Of a stretch of 64,000 bases of DNA, positions 20,392 through 61,063 are shown piece after piece. Positions within the stretch are counted from its first letter, which is position 1; each line of letters opens with the position of its first letter. The stretch covers positions 124,001 through 188,000 of the forward strand of contig JACRLR010000007.1 in NCBI GenBank assembly GCA_016219645.1, given 5' to 3'. Source of the stretch: Nitrospirota bacterium. Lineage in GTDB: Bacteria > Nitrospirota > Nitrospiria > Nitrospirales > Nitrospiraceae. Position numbers and translations under genes: made by a program. The notes under the pieces are model-generated. The model did no database searches and had not been told where the DNA came from. It saw nothing but the letters and a program-made list of their open reading frames with translations.

Positions 20392-20440
20392 GCGTCGTTC
20401 GTCTCTCGCCAAAGAACCGGCTGCAATATTTTTACGAGAT
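20392..20440. repeat. 49-bp dispersed repeat, copy 1
   Basis: Matches 43358-43406 at 48 of 49 positions. It begins GCGTCGTTCGTCTCTCGCC and ends ACGAGAT. It sits 12 bp after the RAM-domain gene. Its function is unknown. Confidence 0.85.
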
Positions 20441-20444
20441 CCTC

Positions 20445-20482
20445 CCCTCGACGGGCTCAGGGCGTCCCGAGCCTGTCGAGGG
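20445..20482. repeat. Palindromic REP-like element overlapping a gene end
   Basis: CCCTCGACGGGCTC pairs with GAGCCTGTCGAGGG around a 10-nt centre. It encodes the last residues (SLDRLGTP and stop) of the Gfo/Idh oxidoreductase. GACGGGCTC/GAGCCTGTC hairpins of this sort are widespread in environmental bacterial genomes. Confidence 0.75.
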
Positions 20483-39045: not shown

Positions 39046-39239
39046 CTAGCCCGCATTATTCATGACTGTTCGTGGCGAAATCGCCAAGCCGCGTTGTGAG
39101 ACCGGCGCGCGGAGCCCGGAGGACCTGAGGCGTACTCATGCAGTACGTCGAAGGTCTGAGGGGCGAGCCCGCCGGCCCAGGCTTGTCGCAACAGCGGATT
39201 GGCGATTGCAGGAGAAGAGTCATAAATAATGCTGGCTAG
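39046..39239. repeat. MITE-like repeat E1
   Basis: 194 bp bounded by CTAG on both sides. The left end is TAGCCCGCATTATTCATGA and the complement of the right end is TAGCCAGCATTATTTATGA. The centre contains the inverted pair GCGTACTCATGCAGTACGTC. The right TAG, read on the minus strand, is the stop codon of the neighbouring membrane protein gene. No coding similarity is seen inside. Confidence 0.8.
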
Positions 39240-40108
39240 TTGAATGGCGAAATAAATCGGCGCTGGCGGCGCGATACCCCATGCAGCGATGCAAAGAGAT
39301 GGCCACGAAACAACAACATCGCCACAGCAAGGGGTGGCGTCAATAGGATCCCGAGATACCAACTGATTGAAGAGGGAATCCCCACGTAGTCCAGCCAACC
39401 TCCGAGGATCGTGAACGGCAGCACGAGGAGCTGGGAAAAATCCAAACCTGCCCCCCTCCCCAGGCGACTGGAGAGAGAAAAGAGCGATTGCAGCCCCATG
39501 GGTGAGAGGATGATGGGGATGAGAATCACCGCAAACGGAAGAAACCATTCGATCCAATTCTCAAGGACGAACTCATAGGAGGTCTTGAACACCTCCAACG
39601 GAGAACCATGCCGCACTTGATAGATAATCTCCGGCGCCGGGTTGAGCAAGAGAAAGAGGAGCAGAAAAACACCGTACGAGAGGAGTTGCCCATAGGGATT
39701 CGTCTGCATCGTCATATCGAGCGCCATCAGCGGCAGCCACATGATAAACCCAACGCCGATGACATCCCAGAAGTAATGACCGACACTGCCGACAATGTCG
39801 CGGAAGGTGAGGGCTCCTGTGGGGCTGATCGATTGCTCGATCAGACTCAGGGTGGCGCCGACCAAGAGCGCATTCACCGCGCCCAGCAGAAACCCTCCGA
39901 CCATGCCGAGCGGCGATGCGATCTGGCTTGCCACCATGAGCAAGAAGCCGAATCCCACCACGGCTATTATGGCCATCCAGCCCCGGACGAGGGACCGTCC
40001 AGTTTTGCGCAAGGCGTTCCGATAGAGTGCCAGTGTTTCGGTGAGAATGCGGGGCATGAAAGACAATAGTCTGTGGGAACTTGTCCGGTCAAGCCAATGA
40101 ATGCTCAT
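39236..40108 (-). CDS. Hypothetical multi-pass membrane protein
   Basis: 290 residues with about six hydrophobic segments (near 45-65, 70-90, 120-140, 145-160, 195-215 and 250-275). No motif I recognise; it resembles DUF4013-like or other uncharacterised integral membrane proteins only in general layout. ATG 40057 (MPRILTETL) is a plausible alternative start 17 codons in. Its stop codon is the outer TAG of repeat E1. Transcribed divergently from clpB. Confidence 0.75.
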   Translation of the reverse strand: MSIHWLDRTSSHRLLSFMPRILTETLALYRNALRKTGRSLVRGWMAIIAVVGFGFLLMVASQIASPLGMVGGFLLGAVNALLVGATLSLIEQSISPTGALTFRDIVGSVGHYFWDVIGVGFIMWLPLMALDMTMQTNPYGQLLSYGVFLLLFLLLNPAPEIIYQVRHGSPLEVFKTSYEFVLENWIEWFLPFAVILIPIILSPMGLQSLFSLSSRLGRGAGLDFSQLLVLPFTILGGWLDYVGIPSSISWYLGILLTPPLAVAMLLFRGHLFASLHGVSRRQRRFISPFN

Positions 40109-43357: not shown

Positions 43358-43406
43358 GCGTCGTTCGTCTCTCGCCAAAGAACCGGCTGCAATATTTTCA
43401 CGAGAT
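43358..43406. repeat. 49-bp dispersed repeat, copy 2
   Basis: 48 of 49 bases match 20392-20440. Here it lies inside a larger inverted repeat: CGTGAAGCG upstream and CGCTTCACG downstream (about 43351-43423) can pair. Confidence 0.85.
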
Positions 43407-43436
43407 ACGCTTCACGATTCACGGTTGTCGAGGCTG

Positions 43437-45626: not shown

Positions 45627-47705
45627 CTACAATAACAGCTCCAGCTGCCGGCGCTCCGTCACTGGAGACGAACAAGTCTGACGATGACACACAAATGCCG
45701 TCGGGTGCCCATTCACCGTCGCCTTCCCTGCGGCAAGCGGCAAGTCGGATTCCCCGACACGACGAGTCGTGTCGGCCACCAGCACCGTACGATTCGGCAG
45801 ATACCGCTGATGAACCGTCGAGAGCAACGATTCGGTTCGTGCATCGCCGCGAGTGCCAAGGACCACAATTTCCTTCGGCGTCGTCAGGTACCAATCTAGC
45901 GAACAGAGCATGGCTGATGAACCATAGGCGTTATGCCCCATCACGCTCCGGAAGACCCGAAATAGATGCTCTGCCCGATCATAATACTGCTGCTCTCTTG
46001 TGAAAGAGAAGAGTCTCAACAAGACCAAGGCGACAATAGCATTGCCGGATGGAATCGCGCTATCAGTTCCGGACTTCATGCGATGAAGAAGGGCTTCATG
46101 GTCGCGACTGGTATAAAAGCACCCGCCCGCTCCCTCATCCCAATATCGATCCAGCAGATGGTCCGTCATCTCGCGAGCCTGCTCCAGATACCACCGATGC
46201 GACGTCGCCTCAAACGCATCCAACAACGCAGCGGCGAGACAAGCTGCATCGTCCAGGTATCCATTCACACGCCCCTTCCCTGCCGTGACCGCACGATAGA
46301 CCCGCCCGTTCTCAACCGCATAGTCCAAGAGGAATGTGAGCGCCCGTTCGGCGGCAGTGAGATAGGCGGGAAGCCCGAATGCCTGGTAGGCATCAAGGTA
46401 GGCGGAGACCATCATCGCGTTCCAACTCGTGAGAATATTGTCATCCCGCTCCGGTTTTATCCTACGCTCTCGTGCTGCTAACAATTTCACCCTGGCATGC
46501 CGCAACGCTTGCAGCGCGTCCGGCGCGATCTGAGTCCCACCGAGCCGATTCAACACGTTCATGCCTTCAAAATTTCCGCTCTCCGTCACTCCATAGTGTC
46601 GGCAGAACTCCTCAGCCGCATTGGCGCCCAGCACCGAAACAATTTCTCCCGGCCCCCACACGAAGTAGGCTCCCTCATGCCCCTCACTGTCGGCATCCTG
46701 TGCAGCATAGAACGCGCCGTCCGGATGCGTGAGTTCACGGCGAACGTACTCCAAGGTCTCTCCCACCACCTCACGAAACCGATCCTCCCTGGTGAGACGC
46801 CATCCATCAAGATAGATCCGTACCAGTTGGGCGTTGTCATAGAGCATCTTCTCGAAATGGGGAATCAGCCACTGGCCGTCCACCGAGTAGCGATGAAAAC
46901 CGCCGCCAAGATGGTCGTAGATTCCGCCGGCTGCCATAGTTCTCAGCTGTAACAATACGAGTTCTTGATAGGAGACGTCTTTCGTCCTAGCCGTCTGACG
47001 CAGTAGCAGGCTCAGCGGGGGAACCGTGGGAAACTTCGGCCCATCACCGAATCCGCCGTGGACCGGATCGAAAAACTGCCCGAGGCTCTTTGCCGCTTCG
47101 TCAAACAAACCATCCGTCAAGGGGTCTGTCGAGGGTTGCGGAGTCCCGACCCGCAGCAATCCTGTTTTGACTTTCTCCACGTTCTTACAGACATCCTCTC
47201 GATGGTTCCGATAGGCTTCGACGACACCTCGCATGACCTCAGGAAATCCCGGCAGATTATGCCGGGGTGACGGTGGGAAATACGTCCCCCCATAAAAGGG
47301 TTCCTGGTCAGGGGTTAGAAACATCGTGAGGGGCCACCCCCCGCCCCGCCCGAGAAACACCTGGGCAGCTTTCTGGTAGATCTCATCCAGATCTGGACGT
47401 TCTTCTCGATCAACCTTCACATTGATGAAGTCTTGATTCATGAGCGCGGCAATCTCGCCGTTTTCGAAACATTCATGCGCCATGACATGGCACCAATGGC
47501 AGGCCGAATACCCGATCGACAAGAGAATCGGCTTGTCCTCTGCTTTCGCCCGTGACAGGGCTTCCTTGCCCCAGGGATACCAATCCACCGGATTCTTCGC
47601 ATGCTGGCGAAGATAGGGACTGGCTTCTGTGATGAGCCGGTTCGGAGATCGGTCCATGGGTAGAGCTGGATCTGTCATCGCTTCTTCGTTCCTATCATTC
47701 GCCAT
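45627..47705 (-). CDS. DUF255 thioredoxin-domain protein (YyaL/SPATA20 type)
   Basis: 692 residues. An N-terminal thioredoxin-like domain (about 15-175) with SACHWCHVM (CxxC) and the family signature NPVDWYPWG; the rest is an (alpha/alpha)6 barrel of the glycosidase-like type seen in SPATA20. Function is not established; a redox or sugar-modifying role has been suggested for relatives. The first 123 codons are duplicated at 49411-49778. Confidence 0.93.
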
Positions 47706-47757
47706 AGTACCTTGCTACAGGCTGCTCTGCAATGAACCAGTCAGACTATGTTATAGT
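47338..47757. repeat. Duplicated left flank, copy A (DUF255 5' part plus upstream)
   Basis: Aligns without gaps to 49411-49830, with six mismatches in about 417 bases compared by eye. Contains the first 123 codons of the DUF255 gene and the shared region ending in TTATAGT upstream of both M28 genes. Confidence 0.95.
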
Positions 47758-47783
47758 CCACGCGACCTCGAGAGGCTTATCGC

Positions 47784-49340
47784 ATGAACTGTGCGCAGCG
47801 CGGCTGTTCTTCCTTCCTTGCAACGGTCGCTCTCTTGGGGATCATCCTCATACTGCTGCCGCTGGGAAGCCAATGCTTTGCCCAATCGGAGGAAGACCAT
47901 CGTGCATGGCTTCGAGCCCTCGATGGCCTGTCGGGAGATCGGATGCTTGCCGACGTGACCACACTCAGTAGCCCTGCCTACAATGGCCGCCAAACAGGAA
48001 CAACGGAGGATGCTGACTCGGCAAAATGGGTCGCGGATAGATTTCTTGTTTCGGGTCTTTCATTGGCCAGCGTTAGCCTCGATCCAACCAGCCCTGCGAG
48101 GCAGGGCCATGGATACGGAGAAGGATACATGACCGCGGCTGTCACAGTGCCAAAGATAGCCCCGAACCCGGCGCTCCGCATTTCAACCGCCAATGACTCG
48201 ATCATCCTTCAACCAGGGAGAGACTATCTCCCGATCCTCGATTCACCCTCCGCGGCAGTTCGCGGGCCAATCGTCTTTGTCGGTTATGGAATTGTCGACA
48301 AGGCCCAGGGGATTGACGATTATGACGGAGTCGATGCCACCAACGCGATCGTCTTGTTTCTCCGAGGCAAACCGACCCATTACAAGAGCGCCATCAGCCA
48401 TGCGGACAAGGTGCGCCTCGCGCGTCAGAGAGGCGCCATCGGCTATCTCACTGCCACGGGGCCTGTGCTCAGCTCCTATGAGGGCCGGCGGGGTGTCACG
48501 GGACAGCCCGGTGCTTTTTATGGACTCTCACTCCCTTCAGAAACGCTCCCTGGCGCCTGGATCAGCACAACTCTGGCCGAGCAGATTCTGGCTACACCGG
48601 ATCATGTACCGCCAAACCGACTGCATGGCTTGCAAGAACATCTGAATCGCTCCCCTGCCACACAATCGGTCAGCACCGGCCGATTGGGCTCGCTCGCTTG
48701 GCAGACAAGCGTGGAAGAAGGCTCCCTCACAAATGTACTCGCCTTCTTGCCCGGCAGCGATCCGCAGAAGACCCATGAGGTCCTCGTGATCGGCGCCCAT
48801 CGTGACCACTTCGGACAACAGGCCGGCTTGCTATTTCCCGGCGCAGACGATAATGCCTCCGGCACGGCAGTGATGTTGGAAGTCGCCCGCGCAATTATGA
48901 CGGCAGGCGCAAGGGGCACACGAACCATCTTATTTGTCTCGTTCAGCGGAGAAGAACAGGGGCTCGTCGGATCACAGCTCTATGTCGAACAGCCTCTCGC
49001 GCCGATCAGCTCGACCAGGGCTATGATCAATATCGACCATGCGGGGATCGGAGATGGCCGGTTGACGATCGGTGTGACGGGATTCGAGAAGAGCCTGGCG
49101 CTCGAAGCGGGACAGACTGTCGGCCTTGCCGACAAACTCGACCTGTACGGATTTTTCCCCGGCGGCGATCATGTTCCGTTCAAAGAAGCTGGAGTGCCAA
49201 CCGTCACCGTCGTCAGCAGCGGCATCCACCCGCACTTCCATCAACCAACCGACAAGGCCGATACGGTCAACAAGGACATCCTGCTGGTCGCGGCCCGCTA
49301 TGTCCTCGCGCTGACCTGGATGTTGGCGGGAGGGCAATGA
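47784..49340 (+). CDS. M28-family metallopeptidase, copy A
   Basis: Exported aminopeptidase-like protein of 518 residues with a signal peptide (about 1-33). A PA-like insert ([20 protein letters not shown]) precedes the M28 catalytic core. The two-zinc site is intact: [14 protein letters not shown], general base and ligand in SGEEQGL, NIDHAG and the C-terminal HPHFHQPTD. The stop overlaps the start of a truncated lipoprotein frame by 4 bp. Likely expressed from the region ending TTATAGT (47757). Confidence 0.93.
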
Positions 49341-49411
49341 ACTCGATCTTCGCGAAGATCGGTTTAGCGGCCGCCCTGTTGCTTGCCCTTGGCAGTTCCC
49401 AATCCTGCAGC
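49299..49411. repeat. Duplicated right flank, copy A
   Basis: 112 of 113 bases match 51370-51482. Covers the last 14 codons of the M28 gene and the first ~25 codons of the lipoprotein gene, up to the duplication joint. Confidence 0.95.
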
Positions 49412-49498
49412 CCCCGCCCCGCCCGAGAAACACCTGGGCAGCTTTCTGGTAGATCTCATCCAGATCTGGACGTTCTTCTCGATCAACCTTCACATTGA
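49337..49498 (+). pseudogene. Truncated lipoprotein gene fused at the duplication joint
   Basis: The first 25 codons ([19 protein letters not shown] and on to SQSC) equal those of the gene at 51408. After base 49411 the frame runs into the reverse strand of the DUF255 fragment and stops after 53 codons. It keeps the signal sequence and the ATGA overlap with M28 copy A, so a short exported peptide could still be made. Confidence 0.85.
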
Positions 49499-49778
49499 TG
49501 AAGTCTTGATTCATGAGCGCGGCGATCTCGATGTTTTCGAAACATTCATGCGCCATGACATGGCACCAATGGCAGGCCGAATACCCGATCGATAAGAGAA
49601 TCGGCTTGTCCTCTGCTTTCGCCCGTGACAGGGCTTCCTTGCCCCAGGGATACCAATCCACCGGATTCTTCGCATGCTGGCGAAGATAGGGACTGGCTTC
49701 TGTGATGAGCCGGTTCGGAGATCGGTCTATGGGTAGAGCTGGATCTGTCATCGCTTCTTCGTTCCCATCATTCGCCAT
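49411..49778 (-). pseudogene. Truncated DUF255 gene (first 123 codons)
   Basis: Near-identical copy of the start of the 45627-47705 gene, including SACHWCHVM. The remaining 569 residues are missing. Past the joint the frame stays open antisense to the lipoprotein start and M28 copy A until 48972, giving a theoretical chimera of 268 residues. Confidence 0.9.
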
Positions 49779-49830
49779 AGTACCTTGCTACAGGCTGCTC
49801 TGCAATGAACCAGTCAGACTATGTTATAGT
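49411..49830. repeat. Duplicated left flank, copy B
   Basis: Counterpart of 47338-47757. Ends at TTATAGT; downstream of that the two loci diverge abruptly. Confidence 0.95.
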
Positions 49831-49857
49831 TCTGCATTACCTTAAAAGGTTCACTGC

Positions 49858-51411
49858 ATGAACGGCTCGACGCGCAGCGGCACTCTCTCCTTTGTTGTCG
49901 TCATTCTCCTGGGAACTTTCCTTTGCCTGCTTTCCCTCGATGGGCGCGCCTTCGCACAATCGGAGGAAGACCAGCGTGCATGGTTTGGTGCACTCAAGAG
50001 TCTGTCGAGCGAACGGATGATCGCCGACGTTCGCACGTTAAGCAGTCCGGCGTTCAACGGACGGCAAGCCGGATCCGCCGACGACCTTCGCTCTGCGCAA
50101 TGGGTTGCACAGGAATTGACTTTGGCAGGGGTACAACTACCGCTTATTGACAACAAGGGAATCGCCTTCCCCTCTCCCGGGGCCAGCAAGGAAGAGCCCG
50201 CTGGCATCATGGCCTCGATGGTCTCGACGCCACTCCTCGAACCCGACCCGGTTGTTCGCACCGGCGCAACGGACCAGTTGGTCACAGCGCAGTTGGGTAG
50301 AGACTACCTCCCGGTCTTTGACTCCCCCTCTGCCGATCTCCAGGGTCAGGTCGTCTTCGTCGGTTACGGCATTGTCGATCCCGCTCAAGGCATCGACGAT
50401 TACGCCGGCGTCGATGTGAAGAACTGCATCGTGCTCTTCCTGCGTGGCAAACCGGATCACTACCCAAGCCCTGTCAGCCACGCCGACAAGGTCCGCTTCG
50501 CACGAGCTCGAGGAGCCTTGGCCTATCTGACCGCAACAGGGCCGATTATCAGCCCATATGAAATTCGCCGCGGCGCCACGGGAAGGCCCAGCGCATTGTA
50601 TGGGCAGCTCGCCCCTGACCAAGCCCTCCCTGGCGCATGGATCAGCACGAAGTTGGCCGAGACTCTCCTCGCCGGAAGCAGCGATGAGTCCAATCCTGAC
50701 CACCTTCGCACCCTCCAAGAACAGCTCAATAACGCCCCAGCAGCGCGATCGCGCCTAGTCAATCGATATGCATCTCTCCATTGGAAAACCACGATAGAGG
50801 ACGGCTTGCTGACGAACGTGGTGGGGATGATTCCTGGCACAGGGCCGGAGGCCATCATCGTTGGCGCCCATCGAGATCATTTTGGCCGCCCTGCAGGCCT
50901 CTTATTTCCTGGCGCTGACGACAATGCATCAGGAACGGCCATAGTCCTGGAGGTCGCACGGGCCCTTGGGAAAATCGACCTACGTCCTCAACGGACGATC
51001 CTCTTTCTATCATTCAGTGGACATGAGAAAGATTCGCTCGGGTCACGCCTCTATACATCGAGACCTGTCATCCCCCTCGGCTCAACGAAGGCCATGATCA
51101 ACATCGACCATGTCGGAGTGGGAGACGGAGTGTTAATCCTCCGTGTCACAGAGTTTAAGAAATCCACGTTAAAGGAAACAGGGTACGCAGTGGGTTTGGT
51201 AAGAAAGCTTGACTATTACGGATTCTTGCCAGGCGGCGACGACGAACCGTTCAAAGAGGCAGGAATTTCAACCGTCAGCATCGCAAGCGGCGGGGCCCAC
51301 CCGCACATGCATCAGCCTACCGACACCGCCGACACGATCAATCCGGAAATTTTGCGGAACATAGCACGGTATGTCCTCGCGCTGGCCTGGATGTTGGCGG
51401 GAGGGCAATGA
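49858..51411 (+). CDS. M28-family metallopeptidase-like protein, copy B (catalytic Glu replaced)
   Basis: 517 residues, collinear with copy A but, by eye, only about 60-70% identical in protein. Signal peptide (about 1-32). Zinc-binding segments [20 protein letters not shown] and HPHMHQPTD are kept. The segment that should read SGEE reads SGHEKDSLGS: the general-base Glu is His (codon CAT, 51022-51024), while the second, zinc-ligand Glu remains. It is probably catalytically impaired. The stop overlaps the lipoprotein start by 4 bp. Confidence 0.92.
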   Translation: MNGSTRSGTLSFVVVILLGTFLCLLSLDGRAFAQSEEDQRAWFGALKSLSSERMIADVRTLSSPAFNGRQAGSADDLRSAQWVAQELTLAGVQLPLIDNKGIAFPSPGASKEEPAGIMASMVSTPLLEPDPVVRTGATDQLVTAQLGRDYLPVFDSPSADLQGQVVFVGYGIVDPAQGIDDYAGVDVKNCIVLFLRGKPDHYPSPVSHADKVRFARARGALAYLTATGPIISPYEIRRGATGRPSALYGQLAPDQALPGAWISTKLAETLLAGSSDESNPDHLRTLQEQLNNAPAARSRLVNRYASLHWKTTIEDGLLTNVVGMIPGTGPEAIIVGAHRDHFGRPAGLLFPGADDNASGTAIVLEVARALGKIDLRPQRTILFLSFSGHEKDSLGSRLYTSRPVIPLGSTKAMINIDHVGVGDGVLILRVTEFKKSTLKETGYAVGLVRKLDYYGFLPGGDDEPFKEAGISTVSIASGGAHPHMHQPTDTADTINPEILRNIARYVLALAWMLAGGQ

Positions 51412-51482
51412 ACTCGATCTTCGCGAAGATCGGTTTAGCGGCCGCCCTGTTGCTTGCCCTTGGCAGTTCCCAATCCTGCAGC
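51370..51482. repeat. Duplicated right flank, copy B
   Basis: Counterpart of 49299-49411 with one mismatch. Identity resumes abruptly 14 codons before the M28 stop. Confidence 0.95.
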
Positions 51483-52004
51483 ACCCGTCCAAATCTCGTC
51501 ATCCATCAATCGGAGGCTCTTTCGGTCATCCTCCGGGAGCGGCCGGCCGGATACCCCTCACTCGAACCCTATCGCCACCCCTACACAATTCCACCCCAAA
51601 CGGCATTAGCTATTCTGGGATCCCTCGATTATAGCGAAGGCTCTTTCCTGCCGTTTTCACAGGGATATCCACACCGCGTGTTTAGCCGCCGTCAGGCAGA
51701 ATTGCTGGCGCCTGAATTATCGAAAGCGTTGAGCATGGCTCTGCCGCAGGAAGTAGTCGCTTTCACCTTGGCCGATGAAGAGAAGCCTGACCGGCGCACA
51801 AAAGGGCTAGGTTTTGTTCTCGGAGACGAGTTGCATGTGATCATCGAAGAGCTTCGGAAGCCTTTCTACGAAGGAGAGCAGAAATCGTATCAACAGCAGT
51901 TTTTTCGATGGGAATTGATTCCGGGCGACAGGCAGCGGCATTACACAACCAGTCCTGGAGGAAAGGGGGTGCTCACCAACTGGATCATAACCCCGCTTCG
52001 GTAA
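51408..52004 (+). CDS. Hypothetical exported protein, possible lipoprotein
   Basis: 198 residues. The N-terminus is a signal sequence (about 1-23) ending SSQSC, a poor lipobox because Leu is not at -3; either signal peptidase could act. The mature part (YPSLEPYRHPYTIPPQTALAILGSLDY, LGDELHVIIEELRKPFYEG) has no recognised motif. Translationally coupled to M28 copy B, suggesting that the pair works in the envelope. Confidence 0.8.
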   Translation: MNSIFAKIGLAAALLLALGSSQSCSTRPNLVIHQSEALSVILRERPAGYPSLEPYRHPYTIPPQTALAILGSLDYSEGSFLPFSQGYPHRVFSRRQAELLAPELSKALSMALPQEVVAFTLADEEKPDRRTKGLGFVLGDELHVIIEELRKPFYEGEQKSYQQQFFRWELIPGDRQRHYTTSPGGKGVLTNWIITPLR

Positions 52005-58562: not shown

Positions 58563-58598
58563 ATGCACAAAGACCTCTTGTCGATTAAAGGGTGCGTC

Positions 58599-60164
58599 AT
58601 GGAGCTGGGTACCGGGATCAATCGATGGTGGTATACATGCGGCTCTGCCGTCTGCATAGGCCTGCTCCTCTCACCCAGTCTCAGTTGGGGTTCGGATGAA
58701 AGCAAATCCCCGCCTGCCGAACAACGCGAAACTATATCCCTCGCCGACGCGGCCATTCGCGCGCTGCAGCATAATCTTGACATCAGCATCAGCCGCCAAA
58801 CAAAAGAGAGTCGGCTGGCCGACATTACCGTTGAACAGGCCAAGTTCGACCCGACTCTTAGCGTGAACGGCCAGTACAACCGGATCGTGAGCCCGCTCAA
58901 TCGGCCCGTGTTCGGCGCTACCGGCAATAGCCTGACCGGGATTGACACGTTTGACCAACGCACCCGATCCGTCACGTTGGATGCCACGACAAATCTACTG
59001 ACCGGCGGCAACATCGATCTGAACTATAGCCCGTCGCGAACCAATGTGAACCAGAACCTGGCCACAGGGTTCCTGTTCAACCCTTCCTATACAGGTGGCC
59101 TCGCGCTCACCCTCACACAGCCTCTGCTCCGCAATGCCGGCATTGGCATCACCAAGACCTTCATCCTGGTCGCTCAGAATAATGCTATTGTGGAAGAACA
59201 TGTCTTTCGCGATCGCGTCCTCTCAGTCCTCGCCACCGTGGAACAGACCTATTGGGAAGTCGTCTTCGCCAATGAGAACCTGAAGGTTGCTGAAGCTGCC
59301 TTGAAGGCGGCACAGGAGCTCGGCGCCAGCAACCGCGCGAAGGCGAAGGCCGGCATCATGTCGCTCGTCGATGTCTTGCAAGCCGAGGCGGCCGTTGCGT
59401 CGCGGGTGGAGCAGGTCCTGGTCGCGGACAAAGCGATCCGGGACCAGGAGGATCAATTGCGCCGGTTGCTCAATCCAGGAGAAGAAAACCTGCGTCAAGA
59501 CGTCCGAGTGACTCCCCTCGACAAGCCGACCGTAACTTTGGAACCCATCAGCCTGGAAGAAGCCATCGACACGGCCATCGAGTTACGGCCGGAAATCGCC
59601 CAGGCAAAAAAGAACACGGAGACGAGCGAGCTCAACACAAAGTTTGCGAAAAATCAGATACTCCCGACCCTTTCGCTCCAAGGAACTATGGGACTAGCCG
59701 GGCTCGGGAAAGACTATACTGATTCCGTGAACCAGAACTTCAGCGGCGATTTCTATAATTATGGAGGAGGCCTTGTCTTAAGTTACCCGCTGGGCAACCG
59801 CTCAGCTTGGAGCACATACAACAAGCGGCAGCTGGAGGCCAAGAACGCTGAAGCCTCGCTGATGAATGTGCGGCAGCAAATTATCGTGGGAGTGCGCGAA
59901 GCGGTCAGGCGCGTCCAGACGGATTTCAAGCGGATCGAAACCACCAGATCGGCCAGAATCATGGCGGAGAAGCAGTTGCAGGCGGAACAAGAGCGACTGA
60001 AGGTGGGGTTGAGCACAACTCGCTTTGTCCTCGATTTTCAACGCGATCTTGCCATAGCCCAAGGGAACGAGTTGCGCGCCACAGTCGACTACAATAAATC
60101 GCTCTCCAATCTCGCGCGGCACAAAGCCACCACACTCGACCGTTATAATCTCCAGCTGAACTAG
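58599..60164 (+). CDS. TolC-family outer-membrane channel protein
   Basis: 521 residues from MELGTGINRWWYT. Signal peptide (about 1-31), then two OEP repeats with long helices (LADAAIRALQHNLDISISRQ; LEEAIDTAIELRPEIAQAKKN) and typical VLSVLATVEQTYWEVVFANENLKVAEAALKAAQEL. This is the trimeric exit duct of efflux or type I secretion. No membrane-fusion or RND/ABC pump gene is adjacent, so it may pair with pumps elsewhere. Its TAG stop is the first triplet of repeat E2. Confidence 0.93.
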   Translation: MELGTGINRWWYTCGSAVCIGLLLSPSLSWGSDESKSPPAEQRETISLADAAIRALQHNLDISISRQTKESRLADITVEQAKFDPTLSVNGQYNRIVSPLNRPVFGATGNSLTGIDTFDQRTRSVTLDATTNLLTGGNIDLNYSPSRTNVNQNLATGFLFNPSYTGGLALTLTQPLLRNAGIGITKTFILVAQNNAIVEEHVFRDRVLSVLATVEQTYWEVVFANENLKVAEAALKAAQELGASNRAKAKAGIMSLVDVLQAEAAVASRVEQVLVADKAIRDQEDQLRRLLNPGEENLRQDVRVTPLDKPTVTLEPISLEEAIDTAIELRPEIAQAKKNTETSELNTKFAKNQILPTLSLQGTMGLAGLGKDYTDSVNQNFSGDFYNYGGGLVLSYPLGNRSAWSTYNKRQLEAKNAEASLMNVRQQIIVGVREAVRRVQTDFKRIETTRSARIMAEKQLQAEQERLKVGLSTTRFVLDFQRDLAIAQGNELRATVDYNKSLSNLARHKATTLDRYNLQLN

Positions 60165-60344
60165 CCCGCATTATTCATGAAGCTTCTGCTACAAGCGTGG
60201 ATACGCGGCTGTGACGGGCAGTCTCGCCGTTCAGCCCTTCGACATACTGCACGAGTATGCCTCAGGGCTTCACGCCTCCGAGTGCCCGTCTCGCTTCGCG
60301 TCTGCACGCTTTCGCAACGAACCTTCATGAATATTGCGGGCTGA
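60161..60344. repeat. MITE-like repeat E2
   Basis: 184 bp. The left end is CTAGCCCGCATTATTCATGA; the complement of the right end is CAGCCCGCAATATTCATGAA. The centre contains GCATACTCGTGCAGTATG-like inverted sequence (ATACTGCACGAGTAT). Same family as E1, with matching ends and a similar centre but diverged arms. The left TAG is the stop of the TolC-like gene. Confidence 0.8.
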
Positions 60345-60352
60345 CCTCCACG

Positions 60353-61063
60353 ATGGCACCTGAGCCTGGCCTGTATGCGACCGCAGCTCAGGCCAAAGAA
60401 CGCGGAGCAGCTCTCGCGCTGTTCCCTGCCGCTACGACACTTGCCTTCTATGCCATTCCCGCTTCGCTCCAAGAACAGACGGTGATTCAGTTTGTGCCCC
60501 AAATCGTTGCCTACATAGCCTTAGGCCTTTGGGCCATGCGCAACCGCCCCTTCGTATCGCTACTTGGGCTGGGAAAGGGGAACCTATCGAACGGCCTCCG
60601 CTGGGGACTGTTGACAGGTCTGCTCCTCAGTTGCCTGAATACGCTCGTGATCCTCACAGTTTACCCGCATCTGGGCTATGACATCAGTTTCCTCAAGACC
60701 ACACCTCATGGCCGACTCCCCTTCTTGATCATGGTTCCCTGGTTTATCACTAGCATTGCCTTCTTTGTCGAACTGAATTTCCGTGGATTTCTCCTCGGCC
60801 GACTGGCCGCACTTGAATCAGGACTGTGGAGGTCCGGCTCAGTCCAACGTTTCTCGCCGCTCGCCCTCATCACCTGCGCACTGATATTTGCTTTCGACCC
60901 CTTTATGGTGAATACTTTCCAGCACCTGCATTGGATCGCACTGTGGGACGGTCTCATCTGGGGAATCATCTGGCTACGTACGGGCAATCTCTACATCACG
61001 ATCGTTGCGCATGCAGTCGAAGTGATGGTGATGTATCTGGCGGTGAGAGCGGCGATTGAGTAA
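60353..61063 (+). CDS. CPBP-like (CAAX protease family) membrane protein
   Basis: 236 residues from MAPEPGLYATAAQ with seven or eight hydrophobic segments. FFVELNFRGFLLGR corresponds to motif 1 (EExxxR, here VExxxR); HLHWIALWDGLIWG and YITIVAHAVEV correspond to motifs 2 and 3, with the last Asn replaced by Val. With two positions altered, protease activity is doubtful. The open frame upstream to 60257 runs through repeat E2 and is not part of the gene. Confidence 0.7.
   Translation: MAPEPGLYATAAQAKERGAALALFPAATTLAFYAIPASLQEQTVIQFVPQIVAYIALGLWAMRNRPFVSLLGLGKGNLSNGLRWGLLTGLLLSCLNTLVILTVYPHLGYDISFLKTTPHGRLPFLIMVPWFITSIAFFVELNFRGFLLGRLAALESGLWRSGSVQRFSPLALITCALIFAFDPFMVNTFQHLHWIALWDGLIWGIIWLRTGNLYITIVAHAVEVMVMYLAVRAAIE

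Follow-up and report, generated by a model that had tools for sequence, protein, structure and literature searches.

Two palindromic elements at gene ends in a Nitrospirota genome, very probably MITEs of an IS1380-family insertion sequence with a YTAR target

Two palindromic elements and their flanking genes

Two small palindromic elements, E1 and E2, are located in the window (the whole stretch of 64,000 nucleotides analysed here, from a Nitrospirota bacterium), each at the end of a gene. E1 is 186 bp long (39050-39235), with tips CCCGCATTATTCATGA (39050-39065) and CCAGCATTATTTATGA (39220-39235, minus strand). It is flanked by the 4-bp sequence CTAG on the left (39046-39049) and on the right (39236-39239). 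The left copy is assigned as a target-site duplication from the flank sequence and from an empty site of equal length in the genome G030 (see below). The complement of the right copy, also a target-site duplication, supplies the TAG stop codon of a membrane-protein gene on the minus strand (39236-40108), for which no Pfam match was found. E2 is 176 bp long (60165-60340); it is a member of the family of E1 but is oriented the other way, with tips CCCGCATTATTCATGA and CCCGCAATATTCATGA. Its 4-bp left flank, CTAG (60161-60164), contains the TAG stop codon of an outer-membrane efflux (OEP/TolC-like) gene on the plus strand (58563-60164; PF02321, 1e-45). Its right flank is CTGA (60341-60344), probably a drifted copy of the duplication. 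The next gene after E2, also on the plus strand, is CAAX-protease-like (60353-61063; PF02517, 1.7e-06).

The original prediction, made from the letters of the window, placed the two elements at 39046-39239 and 60161-60344. Both spans are confirmed and take in the two 4-bp flanks, and the predicted lengths of 194 and 184 bp correspond to 186 and 176 bp plus 8 bp of flanks. The shared 19-bp ends are recovered as four matches at up to 3 mismatches, compared to a chance expectation of 0.01. The central palindrome is present in the form CRTACTC..GAGTAYG, and both genes read AAC TAG at the border, with the stop codon at 39236-39238 (minus strand) for E1 and at 60162-60164 for E2. The arms of the two elements had been described as different. 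However, with E2 inverted they are 76% identical over 176 aligned positions, and E1 and E2 fall into one cluster of 26 with 24 other full-length copies of the genome. E1 and E2 are therefore two copies of one MITE family of Nitrospira-type bacteria.

Other repeats are also found in the window. A 60-bp direct repeat (20392-20451 and 43358-43417, 90% identical, containing GCGTCGTTCGTCTCTCGCCAAAGAACCGG) has matches in the whole genome only at these two positions, and is possibly the pair called R1 and R2 earlier. Direct repeats of about 300 bp at 47335-49707 and 49134-51490 (98% and 82% identical, with a spacing of about 2.07 kb) are probable tandem gene duplications.

Copy number, target site and probable IS1380 source

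The genome (3.65 Mb in 71 contigs) contains 78 tip matches at up to 2 mismatches, compared to 0 for the reversed control. These correspond to about 47 elements or fragments, 34 of them with both ends and none with a transposase gene, and the elements are mostly 176-209 bp in size. The tips are present in 36 of the 61 genomes searched, some of which have about 150 matches, and some exact tips are found in other phyla as well. A literature search for the tip sequence or for Nitrospira MITEs gave no match.

The only strong signal at 113 insertion sites is a 4-bp YTAR (C 63% or T 28%, T 86%, A 86%, G 77% or A 22%), with weak C and G as its neighbors. Exact 4-bp duplications among these sites include 31 of CTAG, 7 of CTAA, 5 of TTAA and 3 of TTAG. 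Where the target is not palindromic (CTAA or TTAG), direct copies number 10 and inverted ones 1. Therefore, the 4 bp represent target sequence that was duplicated, located outside the inverted repeat. In the sister species G030, which is the nearest relative of our genome at both loci, the E1 site is empty and has a single 4-bp stretch, with a stop codon already in place. An ungapped alignment (89% identical) places CTCATC-CTTAT-TTGAATGG of G030 against CTCATC-TCTAG-E1-CTAG-TTGAATGG of our genome. As the empty site carries the stop codon, this codon is older than the insertion of E1. An in-frame TAR within YTAR must already have been a stop before the insertion; the stop codon is part of the target, and both are duplicated together. 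The earlier suggestion of a palindromic target that contains the stop is thus supported, both by the direct duplications and by the empty sites of relatives, which already have the stop. It had been considered that the TAG could belong to the element by chance; it is instead a part of the target. Since the flanks of E2 are mismatched (CTAG and CTGA) and CTGA is the sequence at this position in most empty relatives, we only infer a duplication for this element.

At two other sites of the genome, L067 and L059 (G000, C40:111257 and C20:160547), members of a different subfamily are found at exactly these targets in G023 and G004, respectively. Two insertions into one YTAR, or conversion, may account for this. 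Hot-spot insertion was considered for L067 (G023) and L059 (G004) and set aside, as the coincidences are not clearly above chance given the number of genomes compared.

An insertion sequence with these tips is found in the relative G013 (L104/L298). It is about 1.7 kb long, begins with CTAG and CCCGCATTATTCATGA, contains a transposase ORF, and is followed by CTAA. The transposase (P0001) is a member of the IS1380 family (NCBIfam NF033539, 4.7e-118; PF13701, 1.3e-128), and a family-wide search finds full-length homologs with 81-93% identity. Five more copies (L300, L301, L302, L303 and L305; transposases 81-86% identical) have YTAR at both ends. Each of them has one CCCGCATTATTCAYGA-like end and one CCYGRATAATTCACGA-like end; in the MITEs, both ends are of the former type. 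The MITE tips show 0 mismatches to those of the IS copies in G013 and G141, and 1-4 mismatches to most other tips. Outside the tips, the interiors of the MITEs are palindromic and unlike that of the IS.

The terminal inverted repeats and the 4-bp YTAR duplication are therefore common to the E elements and autonomous IS1380 copies, and the elements are short, gene-less and multicopy, with empty sites in relatives for both E1 and E2. E1 and E2 are very probably non-autonomous copies (MITEs) of an IS1380-family insertion sequence that targets YTAR. This kind of element is already known, and the E family is a new MITE family of that kind. No IS1380 transposase (PF13701) was detected in our genome, a 71-contig assembly in which a copy could sit in a gap, and as a result the family appears to be orphaned here. 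Long inter-tip spans on other contigs (L122, L200, L207, L226 and L237) were considered as autonomous elements and rejected. They have no transposase relative, several enclose ordinary genes, and they look like adjacent separate MITEs.

There are differences from other known systems. A 5-bp repeat is listed for the Paracoccus element IS1247, which is also of the IS1380 family (PMC3281130). The eukaryotic piggyBac elements, for which IS1380 is an outgroup, duplicate TTAA and rarely CTAA or TTAG, and their tips often start with CCC (PMC10813416); in comparison, the E family favors CTAG over TTAA. Precise excision of E elements, by comparison with piggyBac, is only suggested. The REP/BIME, Correia, RUP, YPAL and similar bacterial repeats are also multicopy intergenic hairpins, but have other ends, targets and lengths, judging from their descriptions (PMC2229807 among others).

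Stop codons, E2 history and alternative explanations

E2 is found at the same tolC stop in seven other genomes (G022, G013, G016, G031, G027, G018 and G023), and short remnants are found in G009 and G021. The site is empty in many other species, which mostly read AAC TGA CGGCCTCC (for example AAC TGA CGGCC). In all the E2-bearing species examined, the copy on the stop side is TAA or TAG, and the other side is CTGA or CTCA. The copy of the duplication that serves as the stop would have been kept, and the opposite copy would have drifted. A tree built from the flanks does not group the filled species together, and empty ones lie among them. In G025, G026 and G019 the site is empty, yet its right flank is of the shorter kind that is usual at filled sites, pointing to a clean loss of E2. 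The sites in G030 and G005 look never filled. Exchange between species or repeated insertion may also have contributed to this distribution.

The copies themselves show further features. In G018 and G023 (among L288-L294), an unrelated hairpin of about 60 bp is inserted at the central CTTCGACATACTG palindrome of E2. The G027 copy carries a CTTCGAC..GTCGAAGG-type repeat, such that hairpin repeats are nested in a hairpin repeat. The element at L059 is 93-94% identical in G022 and G031.

The association with stop codons is weaker than originally predicted. All four elements of the window had been described as stop-anchored, which holds for E1 and E2 but, having come from a small sample, does not hold as a rule. 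Exact gene-stop ends are found for 10 (strong) to 13 (possible) of the 47 copies in our genome, compared to 42 of 426 other non-coding YTAR sites (Fisher p 0.02-0.001). For the other genomes the numbers are 19 of 80 copies, compared to 105 of 2101 non-coding YTAR sites, or 52 of 458 for CTAG only (Fisher p 4e-8 to 0.004). The size of this enrichment is uncertain, as the genes were called with a home-made periodic Markov gene caller that misses genes. Roughly three quarters of the copies are away from stops, an outcome that the original prediction had itself named as contrary to it, and nearly all of these are in intergenic DNA. Only 2 of the 47 copies here and 0 of the 80 elsewhere are inside genes, compared to 352 of 778 (about 45%) and 848 of 2949 (about 29%) YTAR sites that are coding. 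The direction of the elements relative to the upstream gene has no clear bias (6 versus 3, by inspection).

The modest stop excess can be explained, we infer, by the choice of target together with selection against gene disruption. The enrichment over other non-coding YTAR sites would also be produced by elements that seek stops, with the transposase or a partner targeting translation termination or transcript ends (for example by ribosome-release or terminator coupling). However, this is very unlikely given the large majority of copies that are not on stops, the lack of sequence information beyond weak C/G neighbors outside the 4 bp, the uncertain size of the enrichment, and the fact that survivorship accounts for an excess. 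A different parentage of the family is even less probable. IS701 uses YTAR targets, and elements of the IS701 or IS5 type are able to use CTAG/YTAR-like targets in general. In Pseudomonas syringae, MITEPsy1, a relative of ISPsy2 from the IS5 family, is also small and gene-less with inverted ends, and it inserts at and duplicates CTAG or YTAA (PMC3189936); unlike the E elements, it is 100 bp long and has other tips. Against this parentage, the IS701 domain PF13546 is absent from our genome, and a scan of 60 relatives gave just two hits to it, of which one fell below the cut-off. Moreover, several genomes show the E tips around IS1380 transposases, and the transposase of the IS bearing these tips is of the IS1380 rather than the IS701 type. 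We consider an IS701 or IS5 origin extremely improbable.

Alternatively, the elements could have been co-opted as 3′-end hairpins (stabilizers of transcript ends, or terminators), and some would for this reason be located at stops and conserved. The hairpins of E1 and E2 are very stable on both strands and fold far better than shuffled sequences (z about -7 to -11). The family forms one long hairpin in which 96% of the pair cells are standard, and 19 pairs show compensatory changes on both sides. The covariation score of 0.292 is above all slid controls (0.034-0.062) and all shuffles, with the shuffle control being inflated by relatedness. In addition, E2 shares 91-99% identity with its counterparts in six species (G031, G022, G018, G016, G027 and G013; the value is 0.795 for the degraded copy of G023), compared to 61-71% identity to our genome at tolC third codon positions in the E2-bearing species compared (62-71% for the six species). 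On the other hand, E1 and E2 contain no U-run and no terminator-like site (a GC-rich hairpin followed by a U-run), and neither is matched in Rfam at the gathering score, where the sole match in the window is a tRNA. There is no asymmetry between the RNA strands for pairs predicted on both strands (29 G-T versus 24 A-C cells), as expected for selection on DNA rather than RNA; an apparent G-U excess disappeared once the counting was limited to these pairs. E2 is also dispensable: the sister species G030 lacks it, as do others, and the copies in G009 and G021 are degraded. Compensatory changes can arise by arm-to-arm templated repair of palindromes. The hairpin is explained equally well by maintenance of the palindrome at the DNA level, whether through such repair or because transposition requires it, and by a function in the transcript. 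Co-option is regarded as unlikely.

Proposed mechanism and implications

A DDE transposase, like P0001 of the relatives and its homologs with 81-93% identity, would recognize the CCCGCATTATTCAYGA tips and excise the element. The excised element would be joined to target DNA cut with a 4-bp stagger at YTAR (in most cases CTAG), and repair would then duplicate the 4 bp. The tips, the target and the duplication are observed features, and the cutting and the mobilization in trans are presumed. YTAR holds TAA or TAG on both strands. An insertion at a stop would keep one copy of the duplication as the stop of the gene, and both neighbors would remain intact. Since such insertions would be harmless and insertions in coding regions would be purged, copies would build up in intergenic DNA and be modestly over-represented exactly at stops. 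This accumulation and the stop excess are observed statistically, and selection is their probable cause.

An apparent stop-codon rule thus becomes a target rule: the 4-bp target is a stop on both strands, and insertion at the end of a gene spares both neighbors. A broader proposal is that an IS lineage with such a two-way stop as its target uses gene ends as safe harbors, and that some of its MITEs, such as E2 at the tolC stop, are now conserved 3′-end hairpins that evolve far more slowly than adjacent synonymous sites; we regard this as speculative and rather unlikely. For Nitrospira, which are important nitrifiers, a defined MITE family is now available, with an IS1380 source identified in relatives and a measured target. 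With the orthologous copies of E2, it can be tested directly whether MITE hairpins persist because they have a function.
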